64,000 nucleotides of DNA from Planosporangium mesophilum (GTDB lineage Bacteria > Actinomycetota > Actinomycetes > Mycobacteriales > Micromonosporaceae): contig NZ_BOON01000010.1 in NCBI RefSeq assembly GCF_016863255.1, positions 1-64,000 of the forward strand, in the 5' to 3' direction. The position numbers were made by a program, and so were the translations under genes. Position 1 is the first letter of the stretch, and every line of letters starts with the position of its first letter. Under the pieces are notes generated by a model. The model did no database searches and was not told the DNA's origin. It saw nothing but the letters and a program-made list of their open reading frames with translations. Positions 51,150 to 55,407 of the stretch are shown piece after piece.

Positions 51150-51275
51150 CGGACGCAGGTCCGCCAAGGGCGCGCGGTTCGTTTCGCACCATGCGCATGT
51201 CAATAGACAGGCGCGAATGCGATGTGGTCTTGTGGAGGTCAATCCAGCGAACCTAATCAACCCACGGGGGACGCG

Positions 51276-51797
51276 ATGGTTGCTCGCCTGGCTCGTAGGA
51301 CGCTGCTCAAAACCTCCGCCGCGACGGTCGGTGTCTCCGCGGCGGGAGTGCTCATCTTCAACGGGGAGGCGCAGGCCGCACCGGCCGCGCCGGTTCACTC
51401 AAGCATCGCCCGGGTGGTCCGCCATGAGGGGGACTCCGCGGTGCTGAACGTCGTGTCCGGGCGACTTCCGGCCGGTACGACCGTCACCGCACCGGTCCGC
51501 GGCTTTCCGCCCGGCTGGCGGCTGGACGAGGGTGACCTGGTGATGTTGAACGGTGACCGCGGCCTCGACCCCGACGCGGCCACCCCGCTGGTCACCCGGT
51601 TCATCGGTCGCGTGGAGGGCCAGACCTCCACCGAGATCGACATCGCCGGGGCGCGGGTGCGGACCACGGGGGCGACGCTCCGGCAGAGCCAGCCGGTCAT
51701 CGGCGCCAGCCGCGGCCAGCAGTTCTTGGCGCTGTGCGTGAAGAACGACCTGACCGGCGCGTACACGTGCTTCTCCCTGCGCCCCACCGCCGCCTGA
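51276..51797 (+). CDS. Tat-exported protein of mau-like cluster, copy A1
   Basis: 173 aa from ATG 51276, preceded by GGGGGAC. The signal MVARLARRTLLKTSAATVGV…GEAQA is twin-arginine type, cleaved probably before APAAP. The mature ~140 residues look all-beta (SIARVVRHEGDSAVLNVVSG, TVTAPVRGFPPGW, EGDLVMLNGD, TPLVTRFIGRVEGQT) and end with two cysteines spaced 11 apart (CVKNDLTGAYTC). No known family was recognised. Its paralogue A2 is 2.5 genes downstream. In the cluster it takes the place that the large subunit gene mauB holds in methylamine dehydrogenase operons. A short barrel-like partner or binding subunit is one guess; function unknown. Confidence 0.8.
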   Translation: MVARLARRTLLKTSAATVGVSAAGVLIFNGEAQAAPAAPVHSSIARVVRHEGDSAVLNVVSGRLPAGTTVTAPVRGFPPGWRLDEGDLVMLNGDRGLDPDAATPLVTRFIGRVEGQTSTEIDIAGARVRTTGATLRQSQPVIGASRGQQFLALCVKNDLTGAYTCFSLRPTAA

Positions 51798-51835
51798 CCA
51801 ACGGCGACGGATAGGGCCGCGCTGCTGACGCGGTC

Positions 51836-51962
51836 GCCCTGGTGATTCACGGCGGCCGAGTTTCTCACGGCACGACCGTGCCGGGAAGTCGGCCGAGTCG
51901 GTACTGCTGTCGGCCGCGTCCGCTTCCATGTTGTTGCCTGTGTCGAACGGGAGGGACCAGGA
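51836..51962 (+). pseudogene. 3' remnant of a mauD-like gene
   Basis: The sequence GCCCTGGTGATT…CACGGCACGACCGTGCCG matches in phase the end of the intact mauD-like gene (from about 53967). Then about 52 nt are missing relative to that gene, which shifts the frame. After this, GGAAGTCGGCCGAGTCGGTACTGCTGTCGG… again matches up to the B start. No start codon or upstream part is left; the first ~140 codons and the whole mauE-like gene are deleted. It is a scar from the cassette duplication. Confidence 0.85.
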
Positions 51963-52319
51963 ATGAGTACCACGGTGACGGATGGTCCGAGTACGTCCGT
52001 GAAGCGTCGGGGCCTGCTGCGCATGCTGAGCGTAGGCGGAATGGCCCTGGTCGGTGGGCTGGCCGGCGCGACCGCCTTGCCCAAGGCGGCCGCGGCGGAC
52101 TGCCAGGGCTCGCCATGCTGCTACCTGGCGTCCTGCACGAAGTGCAGCGGACGGTGCTGGGGCTGGACCTGCCCGAGCGGCTACTACCGGACCTACTGGT
52201 GGTGCATGGCCGGAACACGGCCAATCGTGTGTGGCGAGTGCGTGAAGAACAACACCGGTGGGTGCGGCAGCGGACCGTACGCCTGCTCGTACTGGTTTGA
52301 CGACAATGCCTGTAACTGA
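51963..52319 (+). CDS. Tat-exported 13-cysteine protein, MADH light chain-like, copy B1
   Basis: 118 aa from ATG 51963, with GGGAGGGACCAGGA upstream. Twin-arginine signal (SVKRRGLLRMLSVGGMALVGG…PKAAAA). The mature part is only ~73 residues and holds 13 Cys and 4 to 5 Trp. Key stretches are DCQGSPCCYLASCTKCSGRC, CWGWTC, CPSGYYRTYWWCMAG, IVCGEC and ACSYWFDDNACN. Cys density, the C-P-x-G…W-x-C segment and the Tat signal recall MauA, the methylamine dehydrogenase light chain, which has six disulfides and a Trp-derived cofactor. The protein is much shorter. Whether any Trp is modified is unknown. Oxidative folding by the MauE/MauD-like pair is the likely requirement. Confidence 0.82.
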   Translation: MSTTVTDGPSTSVKRRGLLRMLSVGGMALVGGLAGATALPKAAAADCQGSPCCYLASCTKCSGRCWGWTCPSGYYRTYWWCMAGTRPIVCGECVKNNTGGCGSGPYACSYWFDDNACN

Positions 52320-52436
52320 CCGGGTCTCTTGGTCGGTCCGATTGGCGTCATGACGAAAGTCAATCGAGAAATATCGATCTAGACTGCTCCTCTGATGGTC
52401 AAGTCAGCGAACCTCATCGAAACCACGGGGGACCCT

Positions 52437-52955
52437 ATGGTTGTTCGCCTAGCTCGTAGGACGCTGCTCAAAACCTCCGCCGCGACGGTCGGTGTCTCCG
52501 CGGCGGGAGTGCTGATGTTCAACGGGGAGGCGCAGGCCGCACCGGCCGCGCCGGTTCACTCAAGCATCGCCCGGGTGGTCCGCCATGAGGGGGACTCCGC
52601 GGTCCTGACGGTCGTGTCCGGGCTGCTGCCGGCCGGCGCGACCGTCACCGCGCCGGTCCGCGGTTTCCCGCCCGGCTGGCAGCTCAGTGAAGGTGACCTG
52701 GTGATGTTGACCAGTGAGCGCGCCGTTTACTCCAACGCGGCCACCCCGCTGGTCACCCGGCTCGTCGGGCGCGTGGAGGGCCAGACCTCCGCCGGGGTGG
52801 AGATCGCCGGTACGCGCGCGCGGACCACGGATGCGACGATCCGGCAGAGCCGGTCGGTGACCGGCGCCAGCCGCGGCCCGTTGTTCGAGGCGTACTGCGT
52901 GAAGAACGACATGAGCGGTACGTATTCGTGCCTCGCCCTACGCCCCGCCGCCTGA
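52437..52955 (+). CDS. Tat-exported protein of mau-like cluster, copy A2
   Basis: 172 aa from ATG 52437 after CACGGGGGACCCT. The signal (VVRLARRTLLKTSAATVGVSAAGVLMFNGEAQA) is nearly identical to that of A1. The mature part is also close (PVHSSIARVVRHEGDSAVLTVVSGLLPAGATVTAPVRGFPPGW) and diverges more in the second half. The C-terminal Cys pair is kept (CVKNDMSGTYSC). It lies 15 bp before the mauE-like gene and is the first gene of the intact cassette, so it is probably transcribed with mauE-mauD-B2. No enzymatic motif was found. Confidence 0.8.
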   Translation: MVVRLARRTLLKTSAATVGVSAAGVLMFNGEAQAAPAAPVHSSIARVVRHEGDSAVLTVVSGLLPAGATVTAPVRGFPPGWQLSEGDLVMLTSERAVYSNAATPLVTRLVGRVEGQTSAGVEIAGTRARTTDATIRQSRSVTGASRGPLFEAYCVKNDMSGTYSCLALRPAA

Positions 52956-52970
52956 GCGGCGACGACGGTT

Positions 52971-53540
52971 ATGACGGTATTGACGGGGGTGTTGTCCGCT
53001 GCCTTGGCCGCGCTTCTGGTCTGGGCCGCGGCGGAGAAACTTCGGGCGCGCCGGGAGTTTTCGGCGACGCTGACGGCGATTCGGTTGCCGTCGTGGTTGT
53101 CGGCGGCCGGTGTATACCTGGTCCCGATCGCGGAACTGGTCGTCGCGGCTGGATTGATCGTCGTCCCGGGCCAGGCCTGGCCGCGCATCGGGGTGTTCGT
53201 TCTCGGCCTGGTATTCGCCGCCGCGGGTGTGCTCGCGCTCAGGACGGGGGAGTCCGTCCGGTGCTCGTGCCTGGGCGTCACGCACGATGGCCGGCTCGGC
53301 GCGCGTCAGATCCTGCTTCTGCCTGCCTGGATCGTGGCCGCCGGCTGGTTGCAGCAGTGGCCCGGGCAGTGGGAGTGGCGGACCGGTCTGCAGTATCTCG
53401 CCGCGCTGGTGGTCGCGGTCGCGGCGGTACGGGGTGTTCAGGTGGCCAGGCTTGCCCAGGCCGCGGCGGGCTATCGGGCCGCTACGACCGAGGCCACCGT
53501 AGAGCTGGCGTCCATCGTCGATGTGAGGGGAACACGTTGA
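52971..53540 (+). CDS. MauE/DoxX-like redox membrane protein
   Basis: 189 aa with four membrane helices (LTGVLSAALAALLVWAAAEKL; SAAGVYLVPIAELVVAAGLIVV; IGVFVLGLVFAAAGVLAL; and one or two later). The loop ESVRCSCLGVTHDGRLG contains the CxC that characterises MauE-type proteins. MauE works with MauD to form the disulfides of the methylamine dehydrogenase light chain. Here the natural client is the 13-Cys B protein. The stop overlaps the TTG start of the mauD-like gene. Confidence 0.85.
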   Translation: MTVLTGVLSAALAALLVWAAAEKLRARREFSATLTAIRLPSWLSAAGVYLVPIAELVVAAGLIVVPGQAWPRIGVFVLGLVFAAAGVLALRTGESVRCSCLGVTHDGRLGARQILLLPAWIVAAGWLQQWPGQWEWRTGLQYLAALVVAVAAVRGVQVARLAQAAAGYRAATTEATVELASIVDVRGTR

Positions 53541-54148
53541 CCATTGCCCTGTCGGCCGCAGTCGTCGTACTCGGCGGCCTCGTGCTTCTGCTGTTGGGTT
53601 CGCAGGTCGAGATGTACCGCAGCCTTGCGCAGCTCCGTGAATATGCCGGTCTGGTCGACAACCCGTTGGCGTTGGAGATCGGCGACAACGCGGGCGCGGC
53701 ACCGGCCAGTCGTGGTCTGCCGGATGCACTGGACCGCGCCGAGAACGCGGTCGTGCTGTTCCTGTCCGACAAGTGCGGTACCTGCCGTTCCATCGCGTCC
53801 ACGCTGGACGGCCGGATGCCACCCGATCTCTGGGTGGTGCTCGACCCGGCGGATCCGACGGCCACCGCGGACATCGCGCTGACCTACCGGCTAGCCGAAG
53901 AGCGCCTGGTCATCGACAGTACCCGTGAGCTCAGCGCCACGCTGGCAATGCGGACCACGCCGGCCGCCCTGGTGATTCGTGACGGCCGCATCTCCCACGG
54001 TACGACCGTGCCGTCCTCGCGCAGCCTGGAGGCTCTGCTCGACGCGGTTCGGGCCGGCCGTGCCAGGAAGCCGGCCGAGTCGGTACCGCTGTCGGCCGCA
54101 TCCAGTTCCATGTTGTCGCCTGTGTCGAACGGGAGGGGCCAGGAATGA
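53537..54148 (+). CDS. MauD-like membrane-anchored thioredoxin-fold protein
   Basis: 203 aa from TTG 53537 (TTGA overlap; GAGGGGA 5 nt upstream). One N-terminal membrane helix (IALSAAVVVLGGLVLLLLGSQVEMY) is followed by a thioredoxin fold with active site CGTC at residues 80-83 (VVLFLSDKCGTCRSIASTL). TTPAALVIRDGRI contains the cis-Pro region (TTPA). Length and layout match MauD, which acts in disulfide formation or isomerisation outside the membrane. The stop overlaps the B2 start by 4 bp, which ties the pair to that client. A second, broken copy lies before B1. Confidence 0.88.
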   Translation: MTIALSAAVVVLGGLVLLLLGSQVEMYRSLAQLREYAGLVDNPLALEIGDNAGAAPASRGLPDALDRAENAVVLFLSDKCGTCRSIASTLDGRMPPDLWVVLDPADPTATADIALTYRLAEERLVIDSTRELSATLAMRTTPAALVIRDGRISHGTTVPSSRSLEALLDAVRAGRARKPAESVPLSAASSSMLSPVSNGRGQE

Positions 54149-54516
54149 GTACGACGGCAACGGAGCCCGGGTCGGTGACGGCCTTCGAGGGCACGCCCGC
54201 GAAGCGTCGAGGTCTGCTGCGCATGCTGGGTGTCGGAGGGATGGCCCTCGTCGGCGGTCTGGCCGGCGCGGCCGCGCTGCCGAAGGCGGCCGCGGCGGAC
54301 TGCCAGGGCTCGCCATGCTGCCACCTGGCGTCCTGCACGAAGTGCGGTGGACGGTGCTGGAACTGGACCTGCCCGAGCGGCTACCGCAAGCAGTCCTGGT
54401 TCTGCATGGCCGGGGTACGGCCGATCGTCTGCGCCGAGTGCACGACCAGTACCAGTTCATGCTGGAGCGGGACCTTCGCCTGCTCGTACTGGTTCGACGA
54501 CAATGCCTGCAACTGA
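54145..54516 (+). CDS. Tat-exported 13-cysteine protein, MADH light chain-like, copy B2
   Basis: 123 aa, ATGA overlap with the mauD-like gene. Signal AKRRGLLRMLGVGGMALVGGLAGAA with PKAAAA at the cleavage region. The mature ~73 residues keep every Cys of B1 (DCQGSPCCHLASCTKCGGRC, CWNWTC, CPSGYRKQSWFCMAG, IVCAEC, SSCWSG, ACSYWFDDNACN). Between B1 and B2 the changes fall in loops while Cys, the CW-W-TC motif, the W-x-C motif and the C-terminal SYWFDDNACN are fixed, so the fold is under constraint. Function unknown; a redox or binding mini-protein of the MauA lineage is the best guess. Confidence 0.85.
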   Translation: MSTTATEPGSVTAFEGTPAKRRGLLRMLGVGGMALVGGLAGAAALPKAAAADCQGSPCCHLASCTKCGGRCWNWTCPSGYRKQSWFCMAGVRPIVCAECTTSTSSCWSGTFACSYWFDDNACN

Positions 54517-54661
54517 TGTGATGAACGTGGCGGTGCCGGCGCTCGCCGTCACCGCTGGGTTCGCTCAGTTGTTCAGCCCTTGAGGCACCTCGTTCGTCGG
54601 GATGCTCCGGTCCCTCACCAAGGGGCCGGGCGTCCCTGACGGCCCTCTCGGCGAGGGGGAG

Positions 54662-55270
54662 ATGTCACGGCGTGCGATCGACGTACGCCCAGTCGGGTCG
54701 CTCGTCGGCGGGTTTCTGCTGTCCTCGTTCGCCGTTTTCGCTCTGGCGACCGGCGTCGGGCGGGCGGTCGGTGCCCCGCTGATTCCGGAGACCGGGCGCG
54801 CGGTCGCCGTCGCCCTCATCGGCGTGGTGCTGTGTGCGTACGACATCGCCGCACTCCGGGGCGGAAAGCTGTGCCGGCTCAGTTGGCGGCGGCAGACACC
54901 CAAAAACTGGATCTACCGGTACGGGTCGCGCCGGGGCCCGTTCCTGTGGGGCCTCGACACCGGACTCGCCGTCACCACGTTCCGCGTCTCCGCCGCGACC
55001 TGGGCGCTACTGGCGCTGTGCGCCGGCCAGTTCGCTCCGTGGTGGGTCGGGCTCGCGTTCGGCGGCGGTTTCGCCGCGGCACAGGTGGGGGCCATCGTCG
55101 TACCGCGGTGGCGGCCCGCCAGGCCGGACGGCACGGCTCAGGAGCCGACGTGGATCGTCCGGGCGCTGATGCGGGGCAGACCCGTCGGGCAGCTCGCCAG
55201 CCTCGCGGTGCTCGTCGCGGCGGTCGCCTCCGTCGCGGTCCTGGCCGCCTCGGGTCCCTCGCTACCGTGA
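54662..55270 (+). CDS. multi-pass membrane protein at end of mau-like cluster
   Basis: 202 aa from ATG 54662, directly after GAGGGGGAG; the frame is open further upstream without homology-like sequence. About five membrane helices (VGSLVGGFLLSSFAVFALATGVG; VAVALIGVVLCAYDIAAL; VSAATWALLALCAGQF; WVGLAFGGGFAAAQVGAIVV; LASLAVLVAAVASVAVLAAS). The central loop CRLSWRRQTPKNWIYRYGSRRGPFLWGLDTGLAVTTFR looks conserved in character. It follows B2 after 145 bp in the same direction and may be a further component, such as an electron-transfer or export partner. I do not recognise the family. Confidence 0.65.
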   Translation: MSRRAIDVRPVGSLVGGFLLSSFAVFALATGVGRAVGAPLIPETGRAVAVALIGVVLCAYDIAALRGGKLCRLSWRRQTPKNWIYRYGSRRGPFLWGLDTGLAVTTFRVSAATWALLALCAGQFAPWWVGLAFGGGFAAAQVGAIVVPRWRPARPDGTAQEPTWIVRALMRGRPVGQLASLAVLVAAVASVAVLAASGPSLP

Positions 55271-55333
55271 TCTTGGTCATCGACCAGGACGAGGTCCCGA
55301 CGCTGGCGCTGCCCGGCGCCGCGTGGGTATCGG

Positions 55334-55407
55334 TGCCCCCGGTGGGATTCGAACCCACACTGTCGGAGGTTTGAGCTCCGTTCCTCTGCCGGTTGGGATA
55401 CGGGGAC
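55334..55407 (-). tRNA. tRNA with CAA (Leu) anticodon, short variable loop
   Basis: 74-nt cloverleaf. The acceptor GTCCCCG pairs with CGGGGGC (one G-U), then discriminator A; CCA is not encoded. The T arm is GTGGG-TTCGAAT-CCCAC. The anticodon stem CGGAG/CTCCG closes the loop CTCAAAC, giving anticodon CAA. The variable region is only ACAGT. Bacterial tRNA-Leu normally has a long variable arm, so the identity is unusual (see findings). Confidence 0.85.

Follow-up and report, generated by a model that had tools for sequence, protein, structure and literature searches.

As a rule, MauE, MauD and MauF are regarded as assembly factors that belong to a single enzyme, and a locus of Planosporangium mesophilum raises the question of what such proteins might do beside exported proteins of another kind. 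The locus lies in the window, by which is meant the whole stretch of 64,000 nucleotides that was analysed, and it reads A1-B1-A2-MauE-MauD-B2-F over positions 51276-55270, with every gene on the + strand (Table 1). The reading frames of E and D overlap by 4 nt and those of D and B by another 4 nt, and a tRNA-Leu follows F on the opposite strand (55332-55407). An earlier note had described the order A-mauE-mauD-B, with tight overlaps and a membrane protein behind, and each of these genes was found in its place, as were the proteins with 13 Cys (13 in mature B1 and 13 in mature B2). The genes it took for a single A and a single B are indeed present, but its count did not hold, since A1/A2 and B1/B2 are duplicates, and the membrane protein F counts as a member of the unit. 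The reading preferred here, to which we give a probability of roughly 0.6, is that of a self-contained maturation operon, in which a thiol-redox relay of the MauE/MauD/MauF type would fold a Cys-rich exported protein of a new type together with its partner.

Table 1. Features of the locus and their positions in the window
Feature	Position	Strand	Description	Basis
A1	51276..51797	+	exported protein (173 aa), paralogue of A2, with a twin-arginine leader	ORF
mauD-like 3' end remnant	51831..51962	+	83-88% identical to 53961-54164	
B1	51963..52319	+	118-aa exported protein with 13 Cys in its mature part; paralogue of B2	ORF
A2	52437..52955	+	172-aa exported protein; predicted tandem OB-like barrels and Cys-bearing C-terminal hairpin	
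E	52971..53540	+	MauE-family membrane protein with CxC (RCSCLG)	PF07291
D	53537..54148	+	MauD-like membrane-anchored thioredoxin-like protein (CGTC), TTG start	
B2	54145..54516	+	exported Cys-rich protein (123 aa) whose 74 mature residues include 13 Cys	
F	54602..55270	+	MauF-like membrane protein lacking the N-terminal WSPCG stretch	

At the DNA level, A1 and A2 are 91% identical over 300 nt (51259-51558 against 52420-52719) and the B1 and B2 regions are 85% identical (51993-52241 against 54193-54441), with 76% identity between the two B proteins. Together with the remnant of a D gene between A1 and B1, these identities point to duplication of an A-E-D-B cassette, from one copy of which E and the greater part of D later disappeared. 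The B1/B2 pair has kept 13/13 Cys at a dN/dS of about 0.38, a value derived from small numbers, and looks to be under purifying selection. In A1 and A2, the first half is conserved and the second half (51560-51797 against 52721-52955) gives a dN/dS of about 1.2, again from small numbers, a hint that selection on the second barrel is either diversifying or relaxed. Since the duplicate kept only A and B, with apparent purifying selection on the latter, the arrangement fits one in which A and B are the product and E, D and F the shared machinery.

The kinship of that machinery with mau assembly factors was assessed by model searches and by profile-profile comparison with hhalign. E matches the Pfam MauE model (PF07291) with E 7.7e-19, aligns with proteobacterial MauE at 96.7% (E 3.3e-10), above the controls, and retains the CxC of MauE. 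D aligns with MauD at 93.8% (E 1.6e-7, against E 0.14-0.22 for reversed controls) and possesses a thioredoxin CxxC (CGTC) and one transmembrane helix; it gave no match to the TIGR02661 MauD equivalog model. A second MauE-family gene occurs elsewhere in the same genome (L090; G000:C53:29965-30363), where it adjoins genes for a DsbA-like thioredoxin-fold protein and a peroxiredoxin.

For F, the connection runs through full-length relatives. Searches with F alone, covering 397 and 249 actinobacterial genomes, recovered loci with MauE and/or MauD nearby in nearly all cases and often with a gene for a Tat Cys-rich protein, and several of these relatives, forming a deep-branching full-length family, carry the MauF motif WSPCG. 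Window-type F matches this family at 97.7% (E 1.8e-12, 170 columns), and the family in turn matches Paracoccus-type MauF at 98.7% (E 1.7e-16, 198 columns), with reversed controls for both comparisons at E 0.04-0.25. Another relative, in locus L055, matches DsbD_2 (PF13386, E 7.6e-11); its neighbours on either side are MauB and a MauA-like gene, all within a genuine mau cluster. On sequence comparison, then, F is a MauF relative, linked through its full-length WSPCG-bearing homologues. A cation-efflux identity (PF01545, E 7e-4, below the cut-off) was matched by only one of nine members, and MauF was preferred. With E, D and F matching MauE, MauD and MauF, the unit includes three factors of mau assembly, and the earlier note was mistaken in listing MauF as missing from the window.

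Searches by tblastn and with profiles placed the A-E-D-B-F unit in at least 11 other loci, in Micromonosporaceae, Fodinicola, Embleya and one distant actinobacterium (G406). The carriers include Actinoplanes flavus, Amorphoplanes auranticolor, strain KJ-029, further Micromonosporaceae genomes and an Embleya megaplasmid, and Fodinicola feengrottensis holds three clusters, one of them (L023) without an adjacent A. The order is A-B-E-D-F in two loci (L019 and L056) and A-E-D-B-F elsewhere. Comparison of the flanks across loci revealed no consistent common neighbour, bar generic ABC ATPases and scattered pairs, and because the unit returns at unrelated loci whose flanks are not conserved, its gene order is far above chance; the repeated presence of F makes it a full member. 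B occurs in 7 of 301 sampled family genomes (about 2%), a patchy distribution, and the only two B genes of the P. mesophilum genome are both within the window. The A-E-D-B order is therefore kept across actinomycetes, and the proposal that the locus is a distinct exported system using the mau disulfide-folding pair is supported.

The Cys-rich product itself is small, with 70-82 mature residues in the homologue set. When 14 B homologues are aligned, nine Cys, one Trp and one Glu are invariant (14/14), namely C58, C59, C67, C76, W85, C87, C96, E98, C99, C106 and C113 in B2 numbering. Of the variable Cys, 53 covaries with 64, and 71 or 88 with 122, in 14/14 sequences (p 0.001 and 0.0003, respectively, by a shuffle that ignores relatedness), so that these pairs appear to covary as disulfides. 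The total is odd in 14/14 B (11 or 13) and even in nearly all MauA and deep-family proteins, which means that one invariant Cys should be without a partner inside B. An AlphaFold2 model of B2 has a three-stranded fold, predicted with confidence (pLDDT 88), and a fold search with it found no solved relative and no methylamine dehydrogenase (MADH) light chain among the matches. A bovine antibody knob domain, matched by the B profile in the PDB at E 0.41, was judged a chance hit.

The partner, A, matched no described family. Its leader carries an R7R8 pair that is invariant in 12 homologues, and the Tat leaders score below the curated cut-offs. The AlphaFold2 model of A2 consists of tandem OB-like barrels (pLDDT 83, pTM 0.75), with cold-shock/OB proteins as its best Foldseek matches (E 4.6e-4). 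A haemagglutinin assignment (PF18239) came from a single weakly matching member and was rejected. Exactly one Cys occurs in 9/12 A homologues, always in the final hairpin, on either strand of it. The window's A1 and A2 have two Cys each, occupying both hairpin positions. The joint retention of a single Cys in A and an unpaired one in B would be accounted for most simply by an A-B disulfide, and the two counts suggest a covalent A-B heterodimer or some other use of one Cys. The main difficulty for the A-B disulfide is that the hairpin Cys of the window's A1 and A2 could pair together. Also counting against the preferred reading are the Fodinicola cluster without an adjacent A and the sub-cut-off Tat scores.

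In the mechanism that we propose, A and B would cross the membrane, probably by the Tat route. D, with its membrane-anchored CxxC thioredoxin fold, would make or correct the disulfides of B, the putative substrate of E, D and F; E would exchange electrons with D by way of its CxC, and F, which is DsbD/CcdA-like and lacks redox Cys, would assist. B would end as a small disulfide knot, and its conserved odd Cys would most likely pair with the single Cys in the last hairpin of A. Such a covalent heterodimer would make A a carrier or binding subunit, in the place that MauB has in the mau operon.

A first alternative is that B is a secreted, disulfide-rich peptide of the RiPP or bacteriocin kind, tailored by E, D and F, as was proposed for mauE/mauD clusters of Streptomyces. 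Literature searches yielded one relevant find, a remark in the decRiPPter survey that mauE/mauD homologues lie beside Cys-rich candidate precursors in Streptomyces, which were given no further study (PMC7794033); these searches turned up no description of the five-gene unit, the A family, the kinship of F with MauF or the rule of odd Cys totals. In the survey's families, as here, mauE (with mauD in one family) adjoins a predicted precursor of at least 8 Cys, and no other mau genes are present; the families differ in that no A, F or conserved operon is described for them, no mechanism is given and they are viewed as possible RiPPs (PMC7794033). The small size of B, its patchy distribution and the divergence of the paralogues, fastest in the second half of A, would all suit a peptide of this sort. 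However, conservation extends over all of mature B from genus to genus and leaves no hypervariable core, the partner A is conserved as well, and no protease, exporter or immunity gene common to the flanks was found, so that we consider a RiPP-like product rather unlikely. The claim that no described system has this composition was nearly right, the clusters in the survey being what it had overlooked. The locus is a real, recurrent operon, not found described, that joins a putative MauE-MauD-MauF thiol-redox folding module to an exported Cys-rich protein of a new type and the partner of that protein.

A second set of alternatives starts from methylamine dehydrogenase. Like the mau cluster of Paracoccus denitrificans (mauR-FBEDACJG-napGH-like mauMN), the operon has MauE, MauD and MauF homologues, the order X-E-D-(Cys-rich), a Tat-type leader and a Cys-rich substrate. 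It differs in that MauF comes last and is shortened, MauB, MauG and amicyanin are missing, A is predicted to be OB-like rather than a beta-propeller, and B has some 74 residues, an odd Cys count and no second Trp of tryptophan tryptophylquinone (TTQ). The landmarks of MauA are CPPG-W57-C61-D76C77-C88-YHC121T, in the residue numbering of the Paracoccus enzyme. B has similar landmarks, beginning with CPxG and the invariant Trp, followed by a Cys paired with an acidic residue and by FxCS in the last strand (CPxG-W-C-[DE]C-FxCS), and a lineup made by eye keeps their order, minus the Trp108-Cys109 loop. At the level of motifs, this resemblance is no more than suggestive. B gave no match to PF02975 or TIGR02659 (Pfam and NCBIfam models), did no better than reversed controls against MauA in hhalign, and matched no MauA in a PDB profile search. 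The silence of Pfam is weak evidence, since PF02975 also misses the clear MauA of L055. An apparent bridge, formed by L060, L064 and L066 (all matched by the MauA profile, the last two also by the B profile), was dropped because the MauA match is mainly to the Tat leader; what is left is a modest match between B and the mature proteins of the deep family, with E 2e-5 in a search set of tiny size. The description of B as a shrunken MauA accordingly found no support as a statement of homology, which none of the tests run established, and B is read as working in a MauA-like setting rather than as a MauA.

The cofactor question was approached in the same manner. B contains one invariant Trp and no invariant equivalent of the second TTQ residue, Trp108. 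MauG (PF03150, CCP_MauG) is absent from the nine operon-bearing genomes searched, with controls positive, and a protein search for MauB was negative in the same nine and positive in the genome that carries L055 (G598); the earlier note's view that both are missing was correct. PF06433 (MauB) gave no match in the P. mesophilum genome, its controls being likewise silent, and no cytochrome, copper protein or other such acceptor belongs to the operon. With no MauG, MauB, cytochrome or copper protein, a classical TTQ amine dehydrogenase is excluded, as far as the tools go.

A miniature quinone enzyme, in which B carries a protein-derived quinone or another Cys-Trp modification, is a different matter. 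The parts of a CTQ-like site, resembling the Cys-Trp thioether quinone of enzymes such as the QHNDH gamma subunit and LodA-like proteins, would be on hand in the invariant Trp (like Trp57 of MauA), the invariant Glu (like Asp76) and one unpaired Cys, with Trp85, Glu98 and the nine Cys invariant in 14 sequences. Moreover, the lineup by eye pairs 8/9 invariant B Cys with MauA Cys and leaves Cys96 over, and the modelled hairpin (mature residues 32-40/43-51) would put Cys96 opposite Trp85 if its register is regular, a register taken from secondary structure only. MauE, MauD and MauF also serve a quinone enzyme elsewhere. Against this stand the lack of MauG, of MauB (nine genomes), of a Trp108 equivalent and of an acceptor in the operon, and the negative tests of B-MauA homology, and we regard such a modification as quite unlikely. 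Its fuller form, in which a very small protein makes its own CTQ-like cofactor free of MauG and is presented by an OB-like partner, would define a new class of secreted quinone enzyme and is improbable. It is very unlikely that B descends from the MADH light chain and has merely diverged, with A replacing MauB in a new kind of amine dehydrogenase, since operon position, maturation genes, shared motifs and a Pfam model that misses a clear MauA are outweighed by profile and fold searches devoid of MauA matches and by the lack of MauG, of a second Trp, of a heavy chain and of any electron acceptor.

In several settings across Actinobacteriota, MauE, MauD and MauF accompany differing Cys-rich exported proteins, a pattern suggestive of an extracytoplasmic disulfide-folding pathway of general use. 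The presence of the mau folding machinery beside other exported proteins in several actinomycetes means that it probably serves other secreted proteins too. The individual roles of MauE, MauD and MauF are a question that the large mau clusters left open, and an operon of this small size, its Cys odd in number and in part covarying, would be a simple system in which to test them.

Several related loci deserve mention in their own right. Deep-branching Actinobacteriota clusters (L051, L054 and L060-L073) encode a MauE-MauD fusion, a full-length MauF and a Tat Cys-rich protein with a conserved [DQ]G[ASG]WYRCC...DCC. They are alike to the present operon in that the maturation trio adjoins a Tat Cys-rich protein, in their case with the conserved W...DCC, and differ in the even Cys count and long repeat-like insert of that protein, in the full-length MauF and in the lack of A. 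The L055 cluster (L055:2335-6465) is an actinobacterial mau cluster of the order MauD-MauA-MauF-MauB-MauE, and its MauA has both TTQ-type Trp and 22 Cys. In L052 (3827-5431) and L053 (3994-6102), Cys-rich proteins fused to LGFP repeats (PF08310) adjoin MauD and F, suggesting wall-associated substrates of the same MauD/F machinery. Finally, Tat Cys-rich proteins that look unrelated adjoin MauE-MauD-F in other actinobacteria (L078:5448-5885 and L077:3621-3971).
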